Shown piece after piece: positions 1 to 16,598 of a DNA stretch of 64,000 nt. This DNA comes from Isoetes taiwanensis (lineage: Eukaryota > Streptophyta > Lycopodiopsida > Isoetales > Isoetaceae). The notes below the pieces were generated by a model. It saw only the letters and a list, made by a program, of their open reading frames with translations, made no database searches and had not been told where the DNA came from. The first letter of the stretch is position 1, and the number at the start of each line of letters is the position of its first letter. The position numbers and the translations under genes are program-made. The stretch is taken from NCBI GenBank assembly GCA_021234155.1, contig JAJEKV010000062.1, positions 8,168,083-8,232,082 on the forward strand. The letters run 5' to 3'.

Positions 1-950
1 AATCCATTTCTTCCAAAGAGGGCACATGCGCTCTTGCATGGCATGGAATTATTGATAGGTTTCAGCACATTGCATACCTAACAAAGTTTAAATTGGAACA
101 CACTTATTTGCTCCAAATGCACTTTAGAAGGAATCTTTGAAAGATTCCCTAAGATTCCCTAAAAAAAAGTCCATTTTGAAGGTTTGTTCGTGACAAGTGT
201 AATAATTTAGGTAATTTAGGTATTCTTTTTGAGGGGTTGATTGAACATAGCTTGTATGCAAAAATATTTAATAGCTTTTTTTAGCCCCCTAATTTGGAAC
301 AATAAATAGTTACTTAGATGAAAAGTAAAAAAATAGGCAATGAAAAAATAGCAAGGGTAGTAGAGTGATAAAGAAGTGTTGTATTCATATCTTGTGAAAA
401 TTTTACAAAATTATGAACAAAATTGTCAAAAACATAGCACATTTTGACAAAGCCTCATCACTGGCACTTTGTCTTGTTTACATGTCTGTGTCATCGGACG
501 AACTTACATTTTGCAGCAATATCAGGATGCATGTCATCCTCAAACTAGTTCAGTCCTTGATCATTAGAGCTTTCATCCTCATCCTCACTCCCAAAACTGG
601 ATGTACTCGAACGATCTTCGTGATCACTGTCTACCAGTGAGTCTTCATCATCATCTTTTTTGGCAACCTTTTTAGGTTCTTTATCTAATCCACATGCCGA
701 CCTTATTAAAGTTTAAGTGACTGCACGTAACTTATTAGCAGTAGTCAGAACAAAGTCATATACAAGAACCTTTAGTTGCCTAGATCTATGATACTAGTAT
801 TTGCTTTAGACTTTGCTCTCCTTCCCACTTCTGTTTTTACCATCTTCAAACTATAACTTCCACTGAAAGCATTGATAGCACTTGTTCTCATCCACCAGTA
901 CACTTTAATTGAGTGGGAATTCCATCCTCTCTTGTTACCTCCAATACTCT
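1..950. other. AT-rich stretch without a recognised gene
   Basis: I see no coding sequence supported by family resemblance here. The short reading frame at 413-640 has no recognisable motif. The stretch borders the 3' end of the minus-strand DUF7869 gene and may hold its 3' UTR. It also contains one member of a diverged direct-repeat pair (76-149). Confidence 0.5.
76..149 (+). repeat. diverged direct repeat, left copy
   Basis: Bases 76-110 resemble 11,258-11,293 in the same orientation; both contain AACAAnGTTTAAA followed by a shared CACTTATTTG. A second shared block, TTTGAAAGATTCC, follows in both (about 136-148 and 11,296-11,308). The two copies bracket the DUF7869/methyltransferase unit about 11.2 kb apart. 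They could be remnants of a dispersed repeat, or old ends of a larger element. Similarity was judged by eye. Confidence 0.4.
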
Positions 951-952
951 AG

Positions 953-3613
953 CTAGTTTAATGGATTCGTTTCATTATCATCAGCTGGGACAACAACAAG
1001 CATTCCTTTCTGAATCTCTGAGACAACTTGTTGTGCCGTGCGTCTGGGGCCAATATACATGACTCTGTCATCTTCATCTGAGCTAGGCATTAGCTGTACA
1101 TGTTCTTCTTGATTCTCAACTTGCATAGGCAGAGTTTGCCTAGATGGCCAGTTGAATGCAACAGGTCTTCTACCTTGTGACAAAGCTTGTAGCATGTCAC
1201 GTTGCTGAGAAAAAAACTGAGGCCACCATAAAGCATCTGCCTCCCCAAAGTGGTTAGAGCATGACTGAATACTTGTCTCAATATAATCCAATGATTTGTT
1301 TGAGTTAAATGCTCTTCCCTCCTTTTTACTCTTTGTGATTTCTTTCAAGCTCTTTAGAGGCATTTGCTCTGCAGAGAGCATAGAAGTAGTCTCGGGGATG
1401 GTGCGAATGAATTGAATACCAGATGTTGGCTGCCACTGCAAGGATGTGGCATATTTCTTTCCTTGTAAGATGGCCTTGCCATCTGCAAGTGAGAATTTGA
1501 TCCGATCTTTGAAATGTAATGTTTCTTAAGGGCTCAATTGCACAGTGACCCAATTGATCTCTCCGAAAAATCCATTCCTTGAAATCGTAAGTTTCTTCCA
1601 ATATCTCGCTTTCTGGTCGAGGATTGTAGGAATCTTGGATAACCTCAATCATTGCTGGCAGGCTGAGAGCTTTTTTTCGAGCAAGACATTTAGAGAACCT
1701 ACTAAACATCTGATCAATTTGATCGTGTGTATGACCAACAAGCAGGAAACCAATCTTCAGCTTCTTGAAGATTTGTTTCTCAACTAGCATGGCACAGTAA
1801 GCAAACAATGCCTGATTCTTATTCTCTCTTGTCGTGTTGTCTAGCTGAAGATATAGAACTGGTGGTATATGTTCCGCATCGAAAGAATCTTATTCAATAT
1901 TGTGATAGTGAGATTTGGATCAAGATGAATGTTTGGATAGTTCAAAAATGCCTTGCAAGAGAGTTTTCCATTAAAAACATAGCACCAACGACATGCGGGT
2001 GTATGAAATCTTCTTTAGGAGCATCCTTAGGCACATTGACAAAGTGTGGTAGGGTGGTCTTCTTCTGGTCCATTCCACCAATAACAACCGATATATAGTT
2101 GAGTGGTTGTTCTAGTGCCTTCTTCCTGTGTTTTGTCAATTTTCTCCTTTCCAAAGATTGTTGCTCTCTGTGCTTGTTCGGTTTCTTTTTCAATGCATCT
2201 GAAATGAAAACATGTTTAGGAAAAAAAAACCTACCATTGAGTAGAACTAGGCAAGAGTACGTTGTGGAAGCTTACTTTTAGTGTGAAGTGTCCTTGCATT
2301 TTGTCTCTGAGCTTTTAATTTAGAGCATGTAGCACAAACAGACATCCGGTGCTTTCTAGGAATAGACAATGGGAGAGCACAGTGAAGTAAGAGTAGCATA
2401 CATGGCGTTCTCCAGCCTCAACACACAAATCCTTATAATTATTGTAGACTTCATGTTTCGTGAAGTTGTCATTCAAGTGGTACATAGGGCTGTTAGGGAG
2501 TTTCTCCCAAGACTCCTTGAAGAAACCTTCCATCCAGGAAACACGTTAAAGGGCATGAATTCTGGATATACTTCCCAAATGGCAGTAGTCATTAATGCCA
2601 GGATTCTTGTCAAGCCTTTTCTTCAGGCGATGAAGTCGTCTGCTGCCTAAAGCATGAATCAATTTAAAGGCCGTTTGACAGACAGTGTGGCCACCAGCTG
2701 TGTAAGTAAACTTATCACCATAATCTGGCCGAATATTGAAGGCTAAGTAGCCCCTTTGGTCTAACAAAGTCATTGAACTGTAGTTGTCACGAATCAACCT
2801 TAATTCCTTTAGTCCAATCTTGAGCAAACAACATTGAAGACAACAGTGCTTTGTATGTGTTGCCCTCAAGTGACCCTCGTCTATTAGTTTCTTTCTTCTT
2901 TGCGATGTACAAGCTTTCTTGTGTAAGTTTCGCTTGAGGTTTTCACTCGCATGAGCTTTGAATTCGAACATAGAGTCATGTGGCTTTGCTACATCATCAT
3001 CTGAGAGATCAACATGAGGTGTTTGCATGGGAGCAACAGATGGTGTACTAGTAGATGCTGTGAGGTTGGGTGTGGGCAGGTCTTGGAGGGAGTTAGTTTT
3101 CCTTTCTCTTGGAAAAAGTAGTCGAGGTTGATGATGTAGTTGAGCAGCTCCTGAAGTGTCATAGAACATAGGAGTTACATGGCGCTGACTGCTCCCACTT
3201 AGTGTAGTATCAGGTAGCGAGATGGATGGAGTTGGAGTGATTTGCGCCCGGGGAAACTGTCTACGCTGGACTATAGGAGACAGACTAAAATGAACTGGAG
3301 GAGGGAGTCTGAGCTCGTCTTCGCTTGCTGGAGTGAACTGAATGGGTGGAGGAAAGTTGCGATGTTCTGTGGGCTGTGGTGGAGTAAAATGCATTGGTGG
3401 GGGCAAACGACGTTTAGGAGCAGGCGATGGTGGAGTAAACTGAAATGGTGGTGGAAGCCGACGTGCACAAACGCCCGGGCTGGGGCTTTGAATGTCAGAG
3501 TCAGAAGTTTTGTGGCTACTATCCGGGGACATTGGACAAGGTGTGAAAAGCATTGGAGGAAGGAGCCTGCGAGCAGGACGTGGCGGCTCGGAAGCTCTCT
3601 TTTTTCCAGCCAT
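953..3613 (-). CDS. DUF7869 transposase-like protein, multi-exon, probably no longer intact
   Basis: Read on the minus strand. The first open stretch (3613-2546, 355 codons) starts MAGKKRASEP, carries five to six proline-rich repeats of the form RRLPPPxxFTP (about residues 15-125), then a Cys/His block (HCCLQCCLLKIG) and a segment with GGHTVCQTAFKLIHALG, as in the N-terminal half of DUF7869 proteins. Following blocks include LPNSPMYHLN...TKHEVYNNYK (about 2,530-2,400), a cysteine pair block ending at a good donor near 2,275, GGMDQKKTTLPHFVN (about 2,080-2,030), LQLDNTTRENKN (about 1,860-1,825) and GFLLVGHTHDQIDQMFSRF (about 1,750-1,690). The conserved DN and GHTHxxID residues suggest an RNase-H-like (DDE-type) fold; that is inference. 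The C-terminal part (1,441-953) has the expected LQWQP...IRTIPE segment and an acidic tail. At least one frame change separates conserved blocks, so this copy is probably disabled. It is divergent from the methyltransferase gene, with the palindrome array at its 5' end. Confidence 0.7.
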
Positions 3614-3634
3614 AGTCAGTAAGTAGAGTCTGAC

Positions 3635-4413
3635 GGTATAAATTTATACGACACAGAAGCAGAAGAGATAGTGAACGGTATAAATTTATACAGAGACGGT
3701 ATAAATTTATACGAAAACTTCAGATTTCCGTATAGGAAACGTTATGGAAAACTGCTATACGGAAGAACATACAGCAGAAGTACTTAAGACCAGCAGCGGC
3801 GCGTCTATTTCCTATATACGTTGTTTGGATTCGAAGGCGCTCGCGCTCTGCCTTATATACTCGCCCCAATTTGCTCCTCCGAACAGCTATAAGCAATTCC
3901 ATACGGTCATGGCCACGTAAGTCTCTAACCCGTACCATTTTAGTTCTGCATCTCTTTTAATCTTTTTACTTTTCTTCTATTTTGGGTCTATGGTATAAAT
4001 TTATACTGAGGCTGAGATCCCTCGTTATAAATTTATCCCATTGCAGAACTCTCTCGGTATAAATTTATACCGCGAGAGTTCTGCAACGGTATAAATTTAT
4101 ACCGCTCGTGTTCCCTCAGTATAAATTTATACCGTTGTAGAACTCTAGCAGTATAAATTTATACCGAGAGACCACAGATGGTATAAATTTATATCGTTGT
4201 AGAACTCTCGCGGTATAAATTTATACCGAGAGAGTTCTGCAATGGTATAAATTTATATCGAGGAAGCACGAGCGGTATAAATTTATACCGTTTGAACCTT
4301 TGCCGGGATAACTTTAATCCGCTCGTGTTCTTTCAGTATAAATTTATACCGCTGTATACTCACTCGGTATAAATTTATACCGAGAGACCACCTCCTCGGT
4401 ATAAATTTATACC
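3635..4413. repeat. array of GGTATAAATTTATACC palindromes
   Basis: The 12-bp palindromic core TATAAATTTATA occurs at 3637, 3679, 3700, 3994, 4058, 4090, 4130, 4152, 4192, 4214, 4245, 4275, 4337, 4368 and 4400, with decayed copies near 4025 and 4308. Most are extended to GGTATAAATTTATACC. Some lie in still larger inverted repeats, with flanks of the type GCAGAACTCTC...GAGAGTTCTGC around 4,043-4,084 and 4,202-4,240. Spacings are mainly 21-22, 30-33 or 40-42 bp, close to two, three or four turns of B-DNA. The array starts 22 bp upstream of the DUF7869 start codon and lies between two divergent genes. Each core contains TATAAAT on both strands, so it could serve as a bidirectional TATA-like element or as a dimeric protein binding site. 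Function is inferred. Confidence 0.9.
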
Positions 4414-5052
4414 GAGGATGTGAGGTCTAAAGAAAGGTTTGGAATCATGTTTTTTAAATAATAGTGGTGTGTTTTAGAGTCTAAATACACCGAAAAAAGG
4501 GTACAATAGCCCCAAATTGAGGTTCTTTAAGGCACCATTTTTAGAACTAAAGTAGTTAAAAATTTGTTAAAAAAAACAGCTTCGTGAAGTAAAACGGGTC
4601 TTTTTACACCTTTTCAGCCCCAAGATTGTCATTAAAGGCAAAGGCTAGCAGTCATCTTCGAAGACACAATCCTATGAACTGAAGGATGTGACATGGTGCG
4701 GCATCGGGGGAGCCGAGAACGCTACCCCTGATCGCGTGCACTGCATTTGTGCAAGAAGACAGAAGGGGAAGTTTAGGCCCGAGGACTACTACTACTGGTG
4801 AAATGACAAGTTTAACGCCCACAGAAAACGAAGACAAACTTCCTGATGAACTGTGTGAACGATGAAGGGGATGTAGAGTAAATTTTGAACAGCAGAATAT
4901 TTCGTATCAGCATGTGCAAGCCTAAAGATAAGATGTCCACGAGTACATTTCAGAGAATAACAAGCTTGGTTATGTAAGTATGCGCATCTCCCTTTTTTCT
5001 TCGTGGCTTCTCCGTATAAATTTATACCGACAGCGGACTAATTTAACCTACA
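4414..5052 (+). promoter_or_regulatory. presumed upstream region of the ParB-methyltransferase gene
   Basis: This stretch separates the main array from the first clear plus-strand exon. One further palindrome (core 5,015-5,026) sits about 30 bp before a good splice acceptor (ACTACAG, about 5,052-5,058), so part of the stretch may be an intron. A short upstream frame with ATG at about 4,933 (also at 4,912, same frame) could be the first exon, but its donor is not clear. No other promoter signal is recognised. Confidence 0.35.
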
Positions 5053-5058
5053 CTACAG

Positions 5059-5484
5059 GACTTAGTGGACATCTTATCTTCAGTGACTCTCTGTGAAGAG
5101 AGAGTTATGGTCAAAGGTTTGTGGTACCCACGTGCTAGGGATGACGTGGAGAAAGAAAGCGAACCGGAAGAGGAACAGGAAGAGGAAGAGGAGGAAGAAA
5201 TGGTGACGAAAGGAAAGGGTAAGAGACAAGCCCTGGTTGTAAAAACACAGGCCACAAAAAAATCTAGAACCACAAAGGCCTTGACAATCGGGGAATCAGC
5301 AGAAGCGCTTCAAAAGGCTCCTGGGGCAGATATTGTTTTGAAGCCCTCAGACAGATCAGGTGCTATACTAAAAAGGGTTAAAACCATCATTCATTTACTT
5401 TCGGTTTATGTCGAAATTGGGCATTTTAGAGAGCATCCCTTTGCCCGGTGGCTTTTCCCGTCAGGTGAAAATGGCTCCGCTTAA
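5059..5484 (+). CDS. N-terminal acidic exon of the ParB-methyltransferase gene
   Basis: After an acceptor at about 5,058 the frame reads DLVDILSSVTLCEERVMVKG, then a strongly acidic run of Glu residues (about 5,155-5,200) and a Lys-rich stretch (KGKGKRQALVVKTQATKK) of the kind found in chromatin-associated proteins. The frame stays open to 5,484, but a donor of the form CAG|GTGAAA at about 5,464 may end the exon earlier. I link it to the downstream ParB-like and methyltransferase exons only by orientation and proximity. No known domain is recognised in this piece itself. A 1.9-kb gap, part of it a SINE, separates it from the next exon. Confidence 0.5.
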   Translation, partial: DLVDILSSVTLCEERVMVKGLWYPRARDDVEKESEPEEEQEEEEEEEMVTKGKGKRQALVVKTQATKKSRTTKALTIGESAEALQKAPGADIVLKPSDRSGAILKRVKTIIHLLSVYVEIGHFREHPFARWLFPSGENGSA

Positions 5485-7017
5485 AAACAATTCAAAATTT
5501 TTCCCTCTCCGAATCTCTCCAAGAAGGCTTTTTTTTTTCCCATTTTTTCTTCGCATTTTTTTTCGCTTCATCTTCCCTTCTTCCCCGTTTTCACTCCACC
5601 GCCTCTTCTCTTCTCCTTCCTTTCTTCAGGTGATGACAACGGCGCCTCCAACTCTTCTTCCGGCCATTGCTTCTGCCCCCGCTATGACGGCATTGCTTCC
5701 ATGATGGCATCGCATAGGAAGAAGCTTTTTGAAACACGAACGCTTTTGGGCGCCATCGAAAAAAGAGCGGTTTTGTAACCGATCGTTGAGGTTATTTAGA
5801 ATCCAGAGGGCTCCTTCAAATCCCGACCTGTGAGTTTTGGCTCAGCCCAGATGACCTAGGTTGTTTGTTTCTGTTAGGCCTAAGAAGCTGCGCCCTAAGA
5901 AGCTAGGCATACCGTAAATGTTTCAAGGAAACATGCATATGTAAATTTAACCGCAAGAAAGAGGTAACTTAAATTCATTTGATTTTTGTTTGTATTGATA
6001 CTTGTGAAATTTCAAGCTTTGCAATGAATGCTCTTTTTTGTTGGATTTCGGCATCAAATTCTGTGAAGTTTTGTTATTCATTTTTTTCTCGATTTTTTGC
6101 ATAAAAGTCGTTAACATCTTGAAAGATCTAACGTGCTTTTGTTGAAGGTGGTTGCAGTGTGCTAGATGATGCTCAATCACGGCTTAAAGGCGATTAGAAT
6201 CACGTCATATCCATATACGATACAACATCATGAGAGGCGGTGCTCAGCAAGCAATCATCCAACCGCTCGATCCAATTGATCCAATTGTTCAGATAACTTG
6301 AAACGTAGTTTATGAAGTTGTTATTCCCTTTGGCAAAGATCAATTTCATTGCACGTGATACTAGTATTAAAGCATTGGACAATAAAAAAGCCCATAGTTC
6401 TGAAAGAATCCTTGAGCTTCACATGCAAATGCTACTCTGTAGTTGAATCAAAGCCCCTTAGTCTGATTTTTCTATATCACAAGAATAAAAGCTTCAGAAT
6501 CCCAAATCAGTATTTTCAGTTAAGTGGGCATCATATTTTGAGCAGCTTTTGGAATTGATTGATTGTTGGCCTAATTTTGTGAGTTTATCTGGTTTGGAAA
6601 GAGCAGCTCAAAGATCATGAAGGCAAAGCTAAATCACGCTTTGGCATGATAATGTGCTACAACCTTTGTTGAATGGTCCTTCCCAAATCACGCCATGGCG
6701 GTATTGCTGCTCCATACACCTTCATAACTGCAAAATCATGTGCTTAGTATAGAGAAAAAGCACTGCTATATTTCTCTTCAATGGAATATATGTTGATAAA
6801 TCTGGTCAAGCATGTTTGATGCTTTAAGGAAAAAAGACTAATGTAGTATATTTTATCTGAGAAGCAAATGTCTCAATGTATTATTGGGCTTTAATTTTCT
6901 AGTTTTTCTATAATAATTTCAATTTGACACAGCTCACAAGGGTTTTAAGTGAGATTTTTTTTAAAGTAATGACAATGTATTTTAATATCAAAGCAATAAT
7001 AATTGCCAATAATAATA
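5485..7017. other. gene-free stretch, probable intron
   Basis: T-rich sequence (about 5,520-5,630) followed by AT-rich DNA without a convincing reading frame. It lies between the acidic exon and the ParB-like exon on the plus strand and is most simply read as a long intron. Confidence 0.4.
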
Positions 7018-7172
7018 AAAAAAGACTGGTTGGTCTAGTGGTAAGGGTGGGGGTTTGGGGGCAAATGTCCGTGGTTCAAGTCCATGGTAAAACAAAAAAA
7101 AAAAATTCATGTGCTCCATGGCCCCGCGAGGCCCAAGTGAGCATTAGACAAAAATTAAATTAAATTAAATTA
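7018..7172 (+). mobile_element. tRNA-derived SINE with (ATTAA)n tail
   Basis: An A-box-like TGGTCTAGTGGTAAG (about 7,031-7,045) and a B-box-like GTGGTTCAAGTCC (7,071-7,083) stand at tRNA spacing. A short body follows, then a tail of repeated AATTA units (about 7,146-7,172). There is no foldable tRNA acceptor stem or CCA-like end, so it is a SINE and not a tRNA gene. The tail repeat matches that at the end of the LINE at 49,790-51,238, which suggests that LINE family as its mobilising partner. It sits in the presumed intron of the methyltransferase gene, in the same orientation. Confidence 0.7.
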
Positions 7173-7381
7173 AATATTGTGTGTATGAATGTGCTAATGT
7201 CTGTAAATGCTGATCAAACATCAATTTCTTCCTCGTATTTTAAATAATAATTAAAACACCTATTAATTATGACTCAAACATTGTACTTTTGCATAACAAC
7301 ATGTCAAGCACCACATCATTATATTGAGTAAGGGGTTTGCAAAAGTGGCGTGCTTTTGGGACAGACATAATCCCAATTTAA

Positions 7382-8028
7382 ATGAATGATGGTTTTAATG
7401 AGACGAAGATGTTGAAGCAAACTATTTTATTGACAATGAGCACGATCAAGAGGCCACCAAAAAATGAAGATGGGGTCAGAGTGTTTCAGGTGAGGAAGTT
7501 ATACGTGGCACATGTGGCTATCCGAAAGCGGAGAATGCGAAGGAATCCACATGCACATGTGTCGCCACTTGTTGTCATGGTCGATAGAACCCAGGTCCAG
7601 GAGCTGAGGCATTATAGGAAGGCCGACTTCGAGGACTACGCTTATTATGTTCTTGGTGGCACACACAGTTATAAGGCAAGGAAAGAACTATCTAAAGAAG
7701 AAAGCCAAAACGAGGTCTGGAAGAGCATGGAAGCCCACATATATGTGAGTCTAACAGACGAAGAAGCGAAAGTCATTGTCGTGAGCCACAACCTCGACAA
7801 TGACTTTAGGTTAAAGATAAGCCTTATAGATAAAATCCGCTTCATGCACAGAGAGTATGTCGAGTTCAAACAACTGCATGGAGAGGACTTCAAGAAGCAG
7901 AAGAACAAGCTCCAAGAACTTCGCGAGGCCTGACTGGATGCTGCCTAAGTTACGATTCTGATAAGAAGCCCATCATGGCTGTGAAGCAGTACGATAACTA
8001 CTTCCAACTTGCTTTCAGAGATGGCCAA
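7382..8028 (+). CDS. ParB/Srx-like domain exon fused upstream of a DNA methyltransferase
   Basis: The open stretch 7,382-7,933 includes VRKLYVAHVAIRKRRMRRNP, then YYVLGGTHSYKARKEL and an Ile/Val strand followed by SLTDEEAKVIVVSHNLDND. This is the order expected in ParB-type folds: an N-terminal strand/Arg-rich segment, the GG(T/H)R-like turn followed by Ala-x-x-x-Leu helix, then the acidic D/E-E-A and N/D block. The usual second Arg of the turn is Ser here, so catalytic activity is uncertain. Coding similarity seems to continue in another frame to a good donor (CAA|GTAAGT after 8,028), with SDKKPIMAVKQYDNYFQLAF recognisable, implying a small frame change near 7,930. ParB-like domains fused to N4/N6 methylases are known from phages and bacteria; in a plant nuclear setting the arrangement is unusual. 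Confidence 0.6.
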
Positions 8029-8118
8029 GTAAGTGCAACCTTTGTATTATCCTTTCAATTCTATGTTTAGCGTGGTCTAGAAGGTGTAGAACGGAAGGGA
8101 ATAATGAAGACGAGAGCT

Positions 8119-8352
8119 GTATAAGTTCGTACCCTGGCGTGGAGCGGTATAAACTTATACCGCCAAGACCGAATCCAGATAAATTTATACCCAAGACTCG
8201 AATCGGTATAAATTTATACCGGTCCGGACCACAGTATAAAATTATACAGCAGCCTTCCACGGTATAAACTTATACCACAGCCTGGCACGGTATAAATTTA
8301 TACCGAGGCCTGGCCCGGTTTAAATTTATACCATGGCATGGACTGGTATAAG
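8119..8352. repeat. second palindrome array with 28-bp period
   Basis: Nine copies of the same palindrome family, several diverged, begin at about 8120, 8148, 8178, 8207, 8235, 8263, 8291, 8319 and 8347. From 8,207 onward the spacing is exactly 28 bp. Perfect cores lie at 8,207 and 8,291; others carry a TATAAACTTATA or similar variant. The sequence between palindromes (12-16 bp) differs each time, with a tendency to CCTGGC-like words. The array lies in the intron after the ParB-like exon. A single further copy (GGTATGAATTTATACC) occurs at 9,329-9,344 in a later intron. Confidence 0.85.
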
Positions 8353-8480
8353 AAAGAATTTTCTGCATGTTCGAGGATGGTGAACTTAAGGAGCAAACCA
8401 GCACCGCTGAAAAAAAAACCGAAAAAAAATAGTGAGACAAGAAAAAAAATATGAGCATTGTACATTGGACGCAAGTACAG

Positions 8481-10058
8481 GGGCTAAAGAGCAAATAAAT
8501 TTTTGTGCATCACTTAGAGAAAGTTGTGGCCAAAGAATTCACTCTCGATGAAATGGCAAAGGAAGCTAAGACGTAAGCCGCCTTTACTATGTTGTGTTCT
8601 TCTTTTCCTCATTTTGTCTTACAATCTCTTTCTCTTTGCGGTCAGAAGGACATTGTCACCTGCCAATCCAAGTTAATGAAGCAACTAAACCTAGAAGACT
8701 GGGAAGAGTGCAATCTTCTTTATCCAACTTGTATGACAGACATCATAATTAGAGAACACGCAGTGAACTTCAGTGGCTGGGTGAGTTTTGTAGAAAACAT
8801 GTTTTGTCTTCGTGCCTTTGTCTCATAGTTCTCTTACAGAACAAGAAGAAAGGGCTGCCAGCAGGCTTTCTGAACCTGGTTTGTAGGGCCAAAGAGGAAA
8901 GGCAAAGAATGAAGGCCATCGAACAGGGAAAGCAAGTCGCACCAAGCAGTTTTGACAATGGCTATCGAAGATTTACTACGTTTGGCCAGGACTGCTTGTA
9001 CAAGGTTGTACAAGGTGATTGCACTAGGTTGGGGACTGTGATGGACAAGCAAAACTTGACAGTGTGCATAGCCGACATTCCATACGGATTCAAGATTAAA
9101 GACAGCGCCTTCGATGATGAGGCTTTCACACATGTGCAAGTACGTGTTTTTTTGGATGGCCTGAAGGAAGTCACCTTATCAGCAAATTGGCAGGTTATCA
9201 TTTTTCACTCCGACCTGCAGACCATGTCAGTGCTCAAACCAATAGGAGCGGTCTGCAACGCCGGCTTCGAAGACTGCATTTGGTAAGCTTTACATTTGTT
9301 CACGTTTTCGTTTTCACTAGAATCCTACGGTATGAATTTATACCGCGGGTGCCTTGCGGTCCATGGGGCGTAAGATCCCTAGGCGTACTCATTTATATAT
9401 TTTTCTTATTGCTTCTAGTTTACAATTGCTTTATCTTCTACCAGGCTGAAGACTAACGTCAAAGGACATGGTAGGGGTCCGCGTTTAGTCAGCTGCTTCG
9501 AGCATTCCCATATAGGTTATTACAGCGCAAACACCAAAAAAACCATGGTGCATTTCAATACATAGAATGAGAAGTCGCCGCCATGCAATGCATTCCAATT
9601 CCTTGCTGTCTTGCAAAAGTTGAGAGACCCACAGAGACAAGGCGTTGTGGTGCCCGGGGGACTGGGTTCTGGACGCTTTCTCTGGAACAGGCACCACAGC
9701 GATTTGCGCCCTTAAGAAGGGGCGTAATGTTGTTTCAGTTGATATAGATCCAGATAAAATTAGTTTCATCGGGACTAGAATAAGCTTCTATGAATCCTTT
9801 CCCGATGAAAATGAGGAATTGGGAGCAAAGAATGGTGCTGGGGATGTTAAAGGCACTTACCCAGAAATCCAGCCTCCAATTACGAGAAGAAAAGATGAGG
9901 AGGTGGAGTTCGTGGATCTGGAGCCAGTGGAGCTAGAGCCCGCCAAACCGCCTGCTCCAATAGGATTAGAATCAGAAGCAGGTGTCTCTGGCTTTGTGGC
10001 CTCTCAAGAGACAGATCCAAAGGGAGACGAGAGTCTTGCATTTTATGCTAGATATTAG
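8481..10058 (+). CDS. beta-class DNA N4/N6 methyltransferase exons
   Basis: Exons with good splice sites can be placed at about 8,481-8,572, 8,646-8,780, 8,840-9,282 and from 9,445. The third encodes YKVVQGDCTRL, then VCIADIPYGFKIKDSAFDD, which is motif IV (DPPY-type, here DIPYG) of N4/N6 methylases. The last part (9,645-10,058) encodes GDWVLDAFSGTGTTAICAL followed by VVSVDIDPDK, motif I (FxGxG) and motif II for S-adenosylmethionine binding. Motif IV before motif I defines the permuted beta class (Pfam N6_N4_Mtase). A Glu/Pro-rich tail ends at a stop at 10,056-10,058. A stop in the first exon and frame changes before motif I suggest this copy is decaying, or that my splice model is incomplete. 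It would use S-adenosylmethionine to methylate adenine N6 or cytosine N4 in DNA; which base cannot be told from sequence. Confidence 0.75.
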
Positions 10059-11257: not shown

Positions 11258-11310
11258 CAGGTAACAAGGTTTAAAATGAAACGCACTTATTTGTGTTTGA
11301 AAGATTCCTT
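11258..11310 (+). repeat. diverged direct repeat, right copy
   Basis: Partner of 76-149, in the same orientation. It lies a short distance before the copia-derived sequence that begins near 11,370. Confidence 0.4.
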
Positions 11311-11371
11311 CAAAAAATTTGAAAAATTGCAAAAACAGACAAAATAGGGAGCAAGATAGATTGTTGAGCAC

Positions 11372-12762
11372 ATTCTTAAGGTTAAAGAAGTCAGAAGATG
11401 GTGGAGAATAGGTAGTCGGATTTTCTTGACATCGGTCCCCATCTACACCATTATACTGCCTTGACCACACACCTTATATGCCCTATTATCACCGACATAT
11501 ATTTGCTGTTCAGATGTAGATGCCTCAAATGTTTCAAATATTTCTCTCACCAGAGTCATGTGCATTGATGCGCCTGAGTCCAACCATATATCCCTGATCT
11601 GATTCATTCTCGGTGATGAACTTACCATGAATAATTTATCACCATCTTTATTGTCTCCCTTTTCAAAGTTTCTTGATGGAAATCTGTTCCTATCCACTGA
11701 TGACGACAATCTGGTTCTGCAATCCTTCGCCATATGACCAGCCTTGCCACACCGAAAGCAAGAGGATTTTCTGTTCCTATTCTGCATGCTTGCTTCCCCT
11801 CTAAATCTGCCAAACGGAGTTGGGCTTCTATTCCCATTTGATGGAACATCCCTTGTCTGCATTGGTTTCTTTCCAAACCATCTCTTCTTGTCTTTGATCA
11901 TAAAAGCTGTATTCTTCGCATTTCCTTCTAATTTCAGTTTTCTTTCCTCTTCTATTAACGCTACAACCAAGCTGTCCATTGACTGGTTTGGGATGTTTGT
12001 TAATGTTGTAACAACCGATCTGAAATCTGAGGCCAATCCCTTCAATAGCACTGCCATTTGATCTTCTGCTGAGACCTTTACATTCACTCTTGCTAATTGT
12101 ATGACAAGAGCACGCAACCGACTCAAAAATTCTGGAATAGATTCCCCTGAGGTCATGTGGAAATCAAAAAATTGCTGCTTCAAAGACAATTCACATGTCT
12201 TTCCAGTCCCTCCAAATGTCTTCTCCATTGTTTCCCAGTTCTCCTTGGCACTCTTCTTCAAGTCTACAAGGTGAATATACTCTTCCCCAAGAGCTAATCC
12301 TATTGTGGTGACTGCTTTCCTGTCCCTCTCATCTCATTCCAGGCTTTTGCTGCCTCTGCTGGCCTGACCTCTGTGCCATCTACAACTGTCCAGGTTGCTT
12401 CTCTCATCATGATTAATTGAAGTTTTAGGGACCAGATATGATAATTGTTTCCAGTGAATTTCTCTAGAAACATCTCAAAGAATTTATCTATTCCCTGAGT
12501 TGATCCTGCCATGCTTTCAGAAACTCAAATTTCGTGTATGAAATTCGTACCTCAATAGGTCACCGATAAATTCTTTGTGGGAACTGGAGCGTCTGAATAC
12601 GCTCCTCCTTTGCTGTAGGCGAATTCGAATCTGTTCTCTCAGCCTTCTCTGCCGAAGCCTTTGATTTACCCTGTGTAGAACCCTTTGAATCCTTTCTTCG
12701 AAACTATGGCAACGGCTGCCCTGTCTATGCCCCATAGCAAAGCTCTGATACCATTGTGGCAC
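11372..12762 (-). mobile_element. Ty1/copia fossil, inverted gag segment with primer-binding site
   Basis: On the minus strand a primer-binding site of initiator-Met type (TGGTATCAGAGC, about 12,754-12,743) precedes a gag start (MAGSTQGIDKFFEMFLEKF, from 12,512), a Gag body, a CCHC zinc knuckle (CFRCGKAGHMAKDC, about 11,760-11,720) and the protease-type DSGA motif (about 11,600). At 11,372-11,428 it abuts sequence reverse-complementary to the end of the LTR at about 16,247-16,300. The segment lies head to head with the plus-strand pol segment that begins at 12,753, so the two halves do not form a colinear element. Broken. Confidence 0.85.
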
Positions 12763-15700
12763 TTTACGTAGATGACTGCATATTGGTCTCTAATTCCATT
12801 GAGTTCTTGAAACAAGTAAAAGTGCAACTCAGCGCAGAGTTCCGCATGTCCAACACGAGGGAGATTGATTACTACTTGGGCATACAGATTGTTAGAGACA
12901 GAACAAAAGGCTGGTTACAAATGGTGCAAAGACGGTACATTGAAGAATTATTGATCAGATTTGAAGATCCATGATGTGAAATACGTACCAGGATTGACTC
13001 AAACTTTACTATCCATTGGGAAGATAGCTGATACAGGATTGGTGGTGACATTCACAAAGTACACTTCCACTATATTAGATGAACAAGGTGTGCAGGTCGC
13101 CAGTGGGAGTCGCAAGGATGGGCTCTACAAATTAGATGTCACAATCAAGATTCCACATCAGGCATTGAATGGAGGAAGGAGTATGAATGAATTACAGCTT
13201 TGGCACAATCGTTTGGGTCATGTGAATGTACAGTCAATAAAGAAGTTACACAAGGAGAGGCAGGCAGTAGACTTCAGCATTGGTGATGAGGAAGAGATAG
13301 AGCACTGTGAGGCATGTGTGATGGGAAAACATAAGAGAGGCACATTTCCAGTAGGAGAAAGTGAGCGAGCAAAAGATGTATTGGAGCTCATACACTCTGA
13401 TATTTGTGGCCCTATGCGCACCATGTCCATTGGGAATAAGCGATATGTGATCACATTTATAGATGATTTCTCCAGATTTGTGACTGTTAGACTGTTGGCC
13501 AGAAAATCAGAAGTATTGGACATGTTCAGGGAATTTCAAGCACAAATGGAAACTCAAACTGGGAAGAAGATTAAGTTGTTACGAAGTGACAATGGGGGAG
13601 AATATTGTTCAAAACAGTTTGAGGCATATTTGCAAGAACATGGCATTATCCATCAGAGAACTACTCCCTACACACCATAGCAGAATGGAGTGGCGGAGCG
13701 TATGAACCGTACATTGATTGAAAGTGCCCGATCCATGTTAAGCTTTGCTGGGATGCCGGACAAGTTCTGGGGTGAAGCGGTCATGACCGCAGCATATCTT
13801 CGCAATCGATTACCAACATCCTCTTTGCAAGGACGCACATCATTACTTGTGGTCAGGTCAGGTTCCCTCTCTTGGTCATTTGAGAATTTTTTGATGTATA
13901 GCATACCCTCTTTTTTCTGCTGAAAAACGTCATAAATTGGAGGAGAAGAGTGTGCGCTGCATCCATCTGGGATATTCTCTAGAATCAAAGGCCTGTAGGT
14001 TGTATCATTTAGAAACCAATCGCCTGATCATATGTCGCATTGGAGATGTGAATTTTAATGAAGATATGTATTATGGGGGAGCAGTCTACCCGAGGGGATC
14101 ATCATTGGACATCTTAGGTGTAAATTTTGGAGACATAGATGAGTGGTGCATGGGAGAGGGCTCTAGTTCAATCAGCTCCACGATGGAAGAAGAGGAAGAT
14201 CCTCTTCCAAACTATATTCCAGAAGATACTGCAGAAAAATCAGATGGGTCTCAAGTGGGAGTGACTGGATCTAATGTGGCAGATGCACTTAGAGGACAGC
14301 AGCAAGTTTCTTTGGGATATGACAGTGTCAACAGCGCAAGGCATGCACATGAACAGTTTATCAGAGGAAACAAGGGCACAACCAGATCTGGGCGGGTTCC
14401 TAAGTTAAGTGTGAAAGCTAAGGAAGCGCTAGAATCAGCCAGCTTCAATAGTAGAAAGCGCACTCATCTCAACTTGGTTATGCATGATGAAGATATACAT
14501 GAGCCTGCAACTGTGGAAGAAGCACTAAACAGCACGCATGCAATGGAATGGCAACAGGCCATGGATACGGAATACAACTCTTTGTTGCAGAATCAGACTT
14601 GGGAACTAACGAATCTTCCACCTGGCCGTCAGGTGGTTAGTACCAAATGGTTGTTCAAGCTTAAAAGGAATGCAGCAGGTCACATTGAACGATTCAAAGC
14701 ACGGTTTGTGGCCCGAGGGTTCTCCCAAATTGCAGGAGTGGATTTCACGGACACCTTTTCTCCTGTAGTAAGAATGTCGTCCATACGCATTCTGCTGGCC
14801 CTGGCAGTTCAGTTTAATTTAGAGGTCCATCAGATGGATGTGCAAACAGCATTTCTTCATGGAGAACTTCAAGAAGAAGTTTATGTATCACAGCCAGAAG
14901 GATATATCAAAGCAGAAAATGAGCAGCTTGTATGCAGGTTACACAAGGCCTTATATGGGCTGCGCCAGTCTCCCAGGGCATGGTTCGAACGCATAAATGG
15001 ATATTTGCTTCGATTGGGTTTTGGCAGTACACAGGCAGATGGCAATGTTTATGTCAAGACAATGGGCAGCTTCTTCACCATTGTGGCACTTTACGTAGAT
15101 GACTGCATATTGGTCTCTAATTCCATTGAGTTCTTGAAACAAGTAAAAGAGAAACTCAGCGCAAAGTTCCGCATGTCTGACATGGGGGAGATTGATTACT
15201 GCTTGGGCATACAGATTGTTAGAGACAGAACAAAAGGCTGGTTACAAATGGTGCAAAGACGGTACATTGAAGAAGTATTGATCAGATTTGGTATGCAGGA
15301 TTCAAATCCCGTGGCAACTCCAATGGAATCTCATTTGCAGCTTACTAAAGATATGGCTCCATCAAATGAAGAAGAGGCGCAAGAAATGCGGAATGTTCCA
15401 TATAGGCATGCAGTAGGCAGCCTAACTTATCTAGCAGTTTGTACCCGTCCTGACATTTCATTTTAAGTGGGAGTTGTAAGTCAGTTCATGGATAATCCGG
15501 GACGCCAGCATTGGCTTGCCATCAAGAGGATCATGCGCTATCTAAAAGGTACAATGGATTCTGCATTGGTGTATCAAAGGCAACAGGATAAAGAATTGTT
15601 CAAGTTAGTAGGATACACGGATGCAGATTGGGCTGGGGATGTGGACAGCAGACGATCAACTTCAGCCTATGTTTTTCAGCTTGGAACAAATGTTATTTCA

Positions 15701-16099
15701 TGGCAAAGTAAGCGCCAACCTATCACTGCTTTATCATCAACAGAAGCAGAGTACATTGCTGCTACTACAGCAGCTCAAGAAGCGGTTTGGCTGCGCACAT
15801 TACTGCAGGGAATGTTGTTACAGCAGCACGAACCAACCTTACTTTACTGTGACAATAGAAGTGCCATCGCACTAGCAGACTCAACCAAGTTTCATGCAAG
15901 AACGCGTCACATTGACACTCGATATCATTTCATAAGAGAACAGGTGCAAGCTGGAGTGATTAATCTGCAGCATTGTTCAACAAACGAGATGATGGCAGAC
16001 ATTTTGACCAAACCATTGGCAAGAGACAAATTTCAGCTGCTAAGAGATGAGATGAATATATTATTCTGTGATAAGAGACCGCAAACAGATCCTGGCTGA
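12753..16099 (+). mobile_element. Ty1/copia fossil, pol segment
   Basis: A short stretch (12,753-12,970) duplicates part of the reverse transcriptase found again at about 15,082-15,298. From 12,961 the parts follow the copia order: GAG-pre-integrase zinc region (LWHNRLGHVN...CEACVMGKH), integrase core (HSDICGPM, FIDDFSRF, SDNGGEY), a linker, reverse transcriptase with the YVDD motif (about 15,095), and RNase H (YTDADWAGD, SSTEAEYIA, ending at 16,099). The fossil is fairly well preserved in pol, with only a few breaks, and looks young to moderate in age. The rearrangement of its 5' part makes it clearly non-functional as it stands. Confidence 0.9.
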
Positions 16100-16107
16100 A
16101 GTGGGAG

Positions 16108-16307
16108 TGTTAGAATATGATGAGTCGGCAAGGATCTAGGTTAGATGTCATCTAGTCAGCAATATATGAGTCACGTTGTTTAGGGAATCGTCACATCTGT
16201 CCGATGCATATGATAACTACTTTTGTTGTATTGTGTGATTGAATCAATAAGAAAATCCGACTACCTATTCTCCACCATCTTCTGGCTTCTTTAATCTTAA
16301 GACACAT
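16108..16307 (+). repeat. copia 3' LTR
   Basis: A purine-rich tract (AAGTGGGAG) just after the pol stop is followed by a segment beginning TGTTAGAATATGATG. It is about 200 bp long, with a Pol II-like tail that includes AATCAATAAGAAAA. Its last 55 bp or so recur inverted at 11,372-11,428. The exact right end is uncertain by a few bases. Confidence 0.75.
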
Positions 16308-16598
16308 AGCGTTCAGAATACCACATAAAAAGTAACATTTTTAAAGCTATTTGATTTAGAAAAGAAGGCAAGAAAAAAAATGCTTGTGTTGTAGGACAGA
16401 TTCGATATACTCCTTGGCATGCAACCCAATAGAGGGACAATTGGTGCTCTGGTGGAGGAGATGATACAATATTTATTTGGAAAGTAGGAGAAGGAGATGC
16501 TCCAGTGGAGTTGAAAGGTGCATTCTATAACTGTGTGCAAATCTAGCATGATCGCAAAGTGTTCAAAGGCGCAGCTCCATAACTTTTTTTTCGTTTCA

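Follow-up and report, generated by a model that had tools for sequence, protein, structure and literature searches.

Transposons that carry a ParB-like DNA methylase have been described from algae. The closest to the element reported here is Sola1-1_Ec32 of the brown alga Ectocarpus, in which a transposase is accompanied on the opposite strand by a protein with ParB-like and N4/N6 methylase domains; its authors propose that the element binds and modifies its own sequence (PMC12477816). We analysed a 64-kb stretch of DNA from the quillwort Isoetes taiwanensis (the window, to which all coordinates below refer unless another region is named), which contains a DUF7869 gene and a ParB-methylase gene in the same divergent pairing, set around arrays of a short palindrome. 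The explanation that best accounts for the locus as a whole, with a probability of about 0.55, is a transposon with array-directed self-methylation. Compared by description only, the brown-algal family is 21.5 kb long, whereas the vascular-plant element measures 8-8.6 kb, and the passage on Sola1-1_Ec32 mentions no palindrome array, unlike the Isoetes element (PMC12477816). Green- and red-algal transposon ParB-methylases are cited in the same source (to Iyer et al. 2011; Petroll et al. 2025) and have, by its description, the same domain pairing; for red algae, it also mentions giant EnSpm elements that carry several accessory genes. A land-plant element of this make-up, or palindrome arrays in such an element, were not found in the open-licence literature searched. 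The sequence-only reading of this DNA had stated that no plant element with this combination has been described; this stands for land plants within that literature, but a ParB-methylase transposon is already in print for a brown alga, with the green- and red-algal cases cited alongside it. Therefore, the kind of element is known, and the Isoetes element is a vascular-plant variant of it.

In bacterial ParB-parS systems, a ParB-type protein acts with palindromic sites of about 16 bp; the Isoetes ParB-like part differs in being fused to a methylase, and its candidate sites stand in arrays. Phage ParB-N6/N4 methylase fusions (PMC12704722) show the same fusion and a link to mobile elements, but they are phage proteins, and their 28-41% identity to the Isoetes protein covers the methylase part only. 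Fungal transposons with a TET/JBP dioxygenase (PMC12730594) are likewise DNA transposons with a phage-type DNA-modifying enzyme; the enzyme is a different one, and the passages available describe neither a ParB-like part nor a palindrome array. In bdelloid rotifers, N4CMT is a bacterial amino-methylase acting on transposon DNA in a eukaryote; according to the parts available, the gene belongs to the host, its product has a chromodomain and marks transposons, and it is not borne by them (PMC8885841).

When the window was compared with Pfam, DUF7869 (PF25273) was matched at an E-value of 7.1e-28 on a minus-strand open reading frame (1329-1808), and N6_N4_Mtase (PF01555) at 1.9e-8 on the plus strand (9645-10055). 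The back-to-back placement of a DUF7869 gene and a ParB-like/N6-N4 methylase gene, as first read from the letters, was thus borne out. The first coding block of the ParB-methylase gene matched no Pfam family. The window copy is damaged: an insert (5378-7398) splits the ParB exon, and the reading frame became continuous when the insert was removed and one TTAA kept. Additional frameshifts and stops are present beyond it. The insert itself looks like a piggyBac-type non-autonomous element.

The assembly (1,658,258,908 bases in 1110 contigs) was searched for exact copies of the 18-bp palindrome described below. There were 4415 copies, and 0 of the same letters reversed. Further loci were the 14 regions containing the first 50 of the 4415 listed sites, in contig order; they were selected through the palindrome, not through the element ends. 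Both genes, divergent around arrays, were found in five of the 14 (L006, L011, L014, L015 and L016). L009 contained DUF7869 and gave no methylase match. The remaining eight likewise gave no methylase match, with only short, weak DUF7869 matches (43-57 residues) in L008 and L012. Two-gene copies with target-site duplications measured 8601 bp (L011), 8536 bp (L016) and 7955 bp (L015), and five gene-less derivatives of 2168-2203 bp, L012 included, retained the ends and the array.

Terminal inverted repeats of about 30 bp were common to the copies; both ends start with AACAA(A/G)GTTTAAAATGAAACRCACTTATTT (R = A or G) and are side-specific thereafter. Pairwise alignments of copies stopped at one common point (window 74-80). 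Identical 4-bp flanks were present in seven of the eight copies with both ends (AAAT, ATAG, ACCC, AATC, TTCC, TCAT and TAAC); at displaced positions, used as a control, a match occurred in 16 of 2800 trials. Within the stretches compared, L014 had one end only, its left end being absent, L006 neither, and the right end of L009 was not found. Because the divergent genes co-occur repeatedly and the complete copies share ends and 4-bp duplications, we regard the locus as one mobile, or formerly mobile, unit, and we are highly confident that the gene pair and the palindromes belong to a single transposon. This agrees with the sequence-only reading, and the check that it had suggested, a search for co-occurrence of genes and palindrome with common boundaries, was run in the same assembly with a positive outcome. 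That the two genes are unrelated neighbours, joined by chance or by nested insertion, is hardly credible: nested insertions are indeed present in the region, but the repeated co-occurrence with shared ends and duplications speaks against it, and the complete copies L011, L015 and L016 contradict it, so that this explanation was rejected.

The limits of the unit in the window had to be redrawn. The divergent gene unit first proposed from 953 onwards is real, but it starts at 80; its right terminus lies out of place at 11263, in inverted orientation. No right end was found at the expected place after 10060; a right-type end lies instead at 11263, in the opposite orientation, after AGGT. The 94 bases following this end reappear beyond an insert, at 16307-16400. 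This layout would be explained if the right end and its duplication had been inverted as one piece. The similar sequences at 79 and 11262 were also considered as a direct-repeat flank; this was rejected, as they are the two element ends, the right one inverted. The insert inside the inverted right end (11374-16302) has 54-bp inverted repeats (96%) and copia-type coding sequence, and holds two 214-bp direct repeats (12750-12963 and 15077-15290).

With up to three mismatches allowed, GGTATAAATTTATACC was matched 25 times in the window, all within 3635-9344, against a mean of 0.35 and a largest count of 3 in 100 shuffles. From 236 sites (the window and the 14 further loci), the conserved unit was found to be the 18-bp CGGTATAAATTTATACCG, with near-zero information at most of the spacer positions. 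The palindrome had been described as one 16-bp family lying between the genes and again inside the methylase gene. A single family in those two places was confirmed, but its unit is 18 bp, the sites inside the methylase gene are in introns, and further sites are in the DUF7869 leader. Complete copies had 25-29 palindromes each (L011 26, L016 29, L015 25, window 25), similarly placed in the leader, the intergenic array, a single position before the ParB exon, and the introns. L011, L015 and L016, the three other full copies, have a palindrome after the methylase stop and none within any coding block.

This distribution bears on the main alternative, namely that the palindromes are bound by the transposase or a host factor and act as internal transposition enhancers or promoters, and that the methylase acts elsewhere, for example on the terminal repeats. 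We consider it possible. The sites cluster round the divergent promoters and the DUF7869 leader, the palindrome holds a TATAAATTTATA core, and the sites are retained in gene-less derivatives, all of which would suit such a role; the arrays in the methylase introns and the site past the methylase stop suit it less, and the 18-bp unit with its CGG/CCG arms exceeds the length of a TATA box.

Table 1. Features of the Isoetes element and its surroundings in the window.
Feature	Position	Strand	Remarks
Left target-site duplication ACCT	76..79		
Left terminal inverted repeat (AACAAAGTTTAAA...)	80..109	+	alignments to other copies stop at 74-80
DUF7869 transposase gene	956..3613	-	several reading blocks, broken in window copy; N-terminal block 2549-3613, DUF7869 block 1329-1889
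Three palindromes, leader of DUF7869 gene	3635..3713		
Intergenic array, 13 palindromes	3992..4413		mostly 30-32 bp apart
Likely first coding block, ParB-methylase gene	4649..4798	+	resembles same-place blocks in L011, L015, L016
Single palindrome near methylase-gene start	5013..5028		same-place single site in L011, L015, L016
ParB-methylase exon, first part	5047..5377	+	
Nested insert, foreign to the unit	5378..7398		2 kb; two flanking TTAA copies; 35-bp inverted repeats (89%)
ParB-like domain exon, second part	7395..7930	+	GGTHS motif
Further ParB-methylase reading blocks	7930..8780	+	7930-8028, 8520-8573, 8646-8780; exon edges inferred
Intron array, seven palindromes	8146..8332		28-30 bp apart
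Methylase exon with catalytic motif IV ADIPYG	8840..9283	+	
Palindrome in last intron	9329..9344		flagged site 9329; intron bridged by BLAST match
Methylase C-terminal blocks with motif I FSGTGTT, PF01555	9443..10055	+	
AGGT, reverse complement of left ACCT	11259..11262		beside displaced right end
Right terminal repeat and subterminal DNA, inverted in window copy	11263..11370	-	
Inverted right end, continued past nested insert	16307..16400	-	

Some related sequences were seen in other regions. A second derivative type (L018:2829-4155 and L008:3710-5056, 95% alike) has the right end and a few palindromes only. At L006:8422-9069, a minus-strand open reading frame like the first methylase-gene coding block lies beside an interrupted DUF7869 gene, and a second, more distant DUF7869 copy is present at L022:1358-2548. 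Just outside the L016 element, an open reading frame (L016:758-1129) has a different ParB-like box (SGNHSICAAQ) and is possibly part of another related element.

From its fold and motifs, the DUF7869 protein is predicted to be a transposase of the DDE type whose C-terminal domain is BAH-like. Its relatives number 73 and include proteins of Ceratopteris, Adiantum, Riccia and an oyster. Terminal inverted repeats of about 30 bp, 4-bp duplications at seven of eight end pairs and a predicted DDE/RNase H-fold transposase point to a cut-and-paste DNA transposon, with a complete length of about 8-8.6 kb and probably of a Sola1-like kind. Sola1 elements make 4-bp target-site duplications, and the duplication of the Isoetes element agrees with this. 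A 4-bp duplication is stated for Sola2 in the available part of one paper. It may be noted that PF25273 carried no Sola label in any search result, and that no paper naming DUF7869 was found in the open-licence literature searched.

For the second protein, a putative ParB-like domain joined to a beta-class amino-methylase is predicted. Motif IV (ADIPYG, in 8840-9283) lies upstream of motif I (FSGTGTT, in 9645-10055), the order of the beta-class N6/N4 enzymes of PF01555, and the DxPY form of motif IV favours N6-adenine as the predicted target. Protein matches at E 0.01 or better gave 44 relatives: 40 from Adiantum nelumboides, three from A. capillus-veneris, and one plant-like EukProt entry, Gb_10123 (P0032), presumably from Ginkgo to judge by its prefix. 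A profile and a structure model were made with 27 of the 44. In a PDB profile search, this profile matched RsrI (1.9e-6) and MboIIA (1.7e-5), which we take to be beta-class adenine methylases. The ParB-like part carries LGGTHS and HNxD motifs, presumably of the ParB/Srx type. No Pfam ParB-like match was obtained in the window exon. The joined window protein gave weak phage ParB matches at one place (phrog_6392, E 0.028; phrog_723, E 0.1), and matches at that place were not seen in proteins P0001 or P0002. When the ParB exon was compared with phages by permissive tblastn (E up to 10), 15 records were obtained, comprising 12 ParB-like proteins, one DNA methyltransferase and two hypothetical proteins.

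For the ParB exon, the ratio of non-synonymous to synonymous divergence (dN/dS) stayed under 0.2 in 13 of the 15 pairs (0.05-0.65 overall; dS 0.25-2.2, often saturated). The motif IV exon gave usable values of 0.11 and 0.17, one of 0.58 (L015, seven stops) and two that were saturated; the motif I exon gave 0.17, 0.18, 0.18 and 0.24, and one of 0.71 (L006). The outlying 0.58 and 0.71 were taken as misalignment or decay. For the DUF7869 exons, the ratio was 0.21-0.81 in one comparison set and 0.34-0.50 in another. The low ratios in the ParB and methylase exons imply that the methylase has been kept functional over long element evolution. It is very unlikely, then, that the ParB-methylase is a captured passenger with no role for the element. 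Transposons often carry passengers, and many copies here are gene-less, but the ParB exon has stayed constrained across these divergences, the relatives occur in Adiantum (43 of 44 matches) and in the plant-like P0032, and the same pairing exists in a brown alga. The methylase half of the element was mostly the more diverged (identity 0.59-0.86 in 400-bp blocks, the short end block aside); in the same pairs, L011 versus the window included, the DUF7869 half showed 0.79-0.94 up to about position 3275. This pattern suggests that element halves may have been exchanged between subfamilies.

The results above show anatomy, mobility and conservation; binding, methylation and a benefit to the element we infer, in the following manner. 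The DUF7869 protein would move the element. The ParB-methylase, alone or complexed with the transposase, would recognise the palindrome arrays cooperatively and, once loaded there, would methylate, in cis, the DNA of the element itself. Such a mark may oppose silencing by the host or license the action of the transposase; non-autonomous copies that retain the array may be served by it as well. We give even odds to the array-directed methylation step. It is somewhat doubtful whether the likeness to ParB-parS extends further, such that a ParB-like switch with an adenine methylase would load at helically phased arrays, marking in cis, and in trans for array-bearing derivatives, and so telling self from host for anti-silencing or licensing. 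Alternatively, methylation might gate transposition or replication timing rather than silencing, half-methylated, newly replicated element DNA being the active substrate. Bacterial Dam methylation gates IS10 transposition, and an amino-methylase whose motifs I and IV are conserved, and which is under purifying selection in a cut-and-paste element, would be consistent with this; no copy of the palindrome lies in the terminal repeats, however, and we think the gating role unlikely.

The self-methylation reading draws on the conservation and spacing of the sites. In 12 of 12 directed comparisons, for which the sites were defined in one copy and looked up in another, palindrome cores were 83-94% identical; the 8 bases next to them reached 41-72%, and whole elements 77-88%. 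The size of this excess is uncertain, as the aligner may lock on repeated cores. Spacings between palindromes clustered at 20-21, 28-32, 42, 52 and 62-63 bp, and the period that fitted them best was 10.75 bp (R 0.55, n = 147), in copies that do not count as independent. When restricted to those above 36 bp, they gave R 0.46 (n = 43; p = 0.0002, tested with a uniform null). Such a period fits proteins bound along the same side of the double helix; the common spacings of 28-29 bp are the exception. Besides the aligner effect, several results weigh against the reading. The 28-29 bp spacings, frequent in the intron arrays, do not correspond to full turns of the helix, and related copies have spacings in common through descent. 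Among derivatives, the core exceeded the flank in 16 of 20 comparisons, equalled it in three and fell below it in one, a weaker excess, and these derivatives were found through the palindrome, so that their retention of the array is partly a matter of sample selection. L012 has both ends and no target duplication. Foldseek alone gave no match at E 0.001 or better, the best (8.9e-3) being an Argonaute. The 27 ParB-methylase relatives showed no Pfam or listed PHROG ParB match, except DUF6551 in one (0.032), and the model of a relative was poor (predicted local distance difference test score, pLDDT, 43.2), with no ParB fold seen.

For the algal ParB-methylase transposons, the passages available put forward self-modification with no named target. 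A candidate target is now concrete: an 18-bp palindrome, present 25-29 times per complete copy and 4415 times, without mismatch, in one lycophyte assembly; it is better conserved than the DNA around it and is retained in gene-less derivatives. The pairing of transposase and ParB-methylase is also placed in vascular plants, in a quillwort, and relatives of the methylase occur in Adiantum ferns. Whether a eukaryotic mobile element marks itself becomes directly testable, which bears on the relevance of N6-methyladenine (6mA) or N4-methylcytosine (4mC) in plants.

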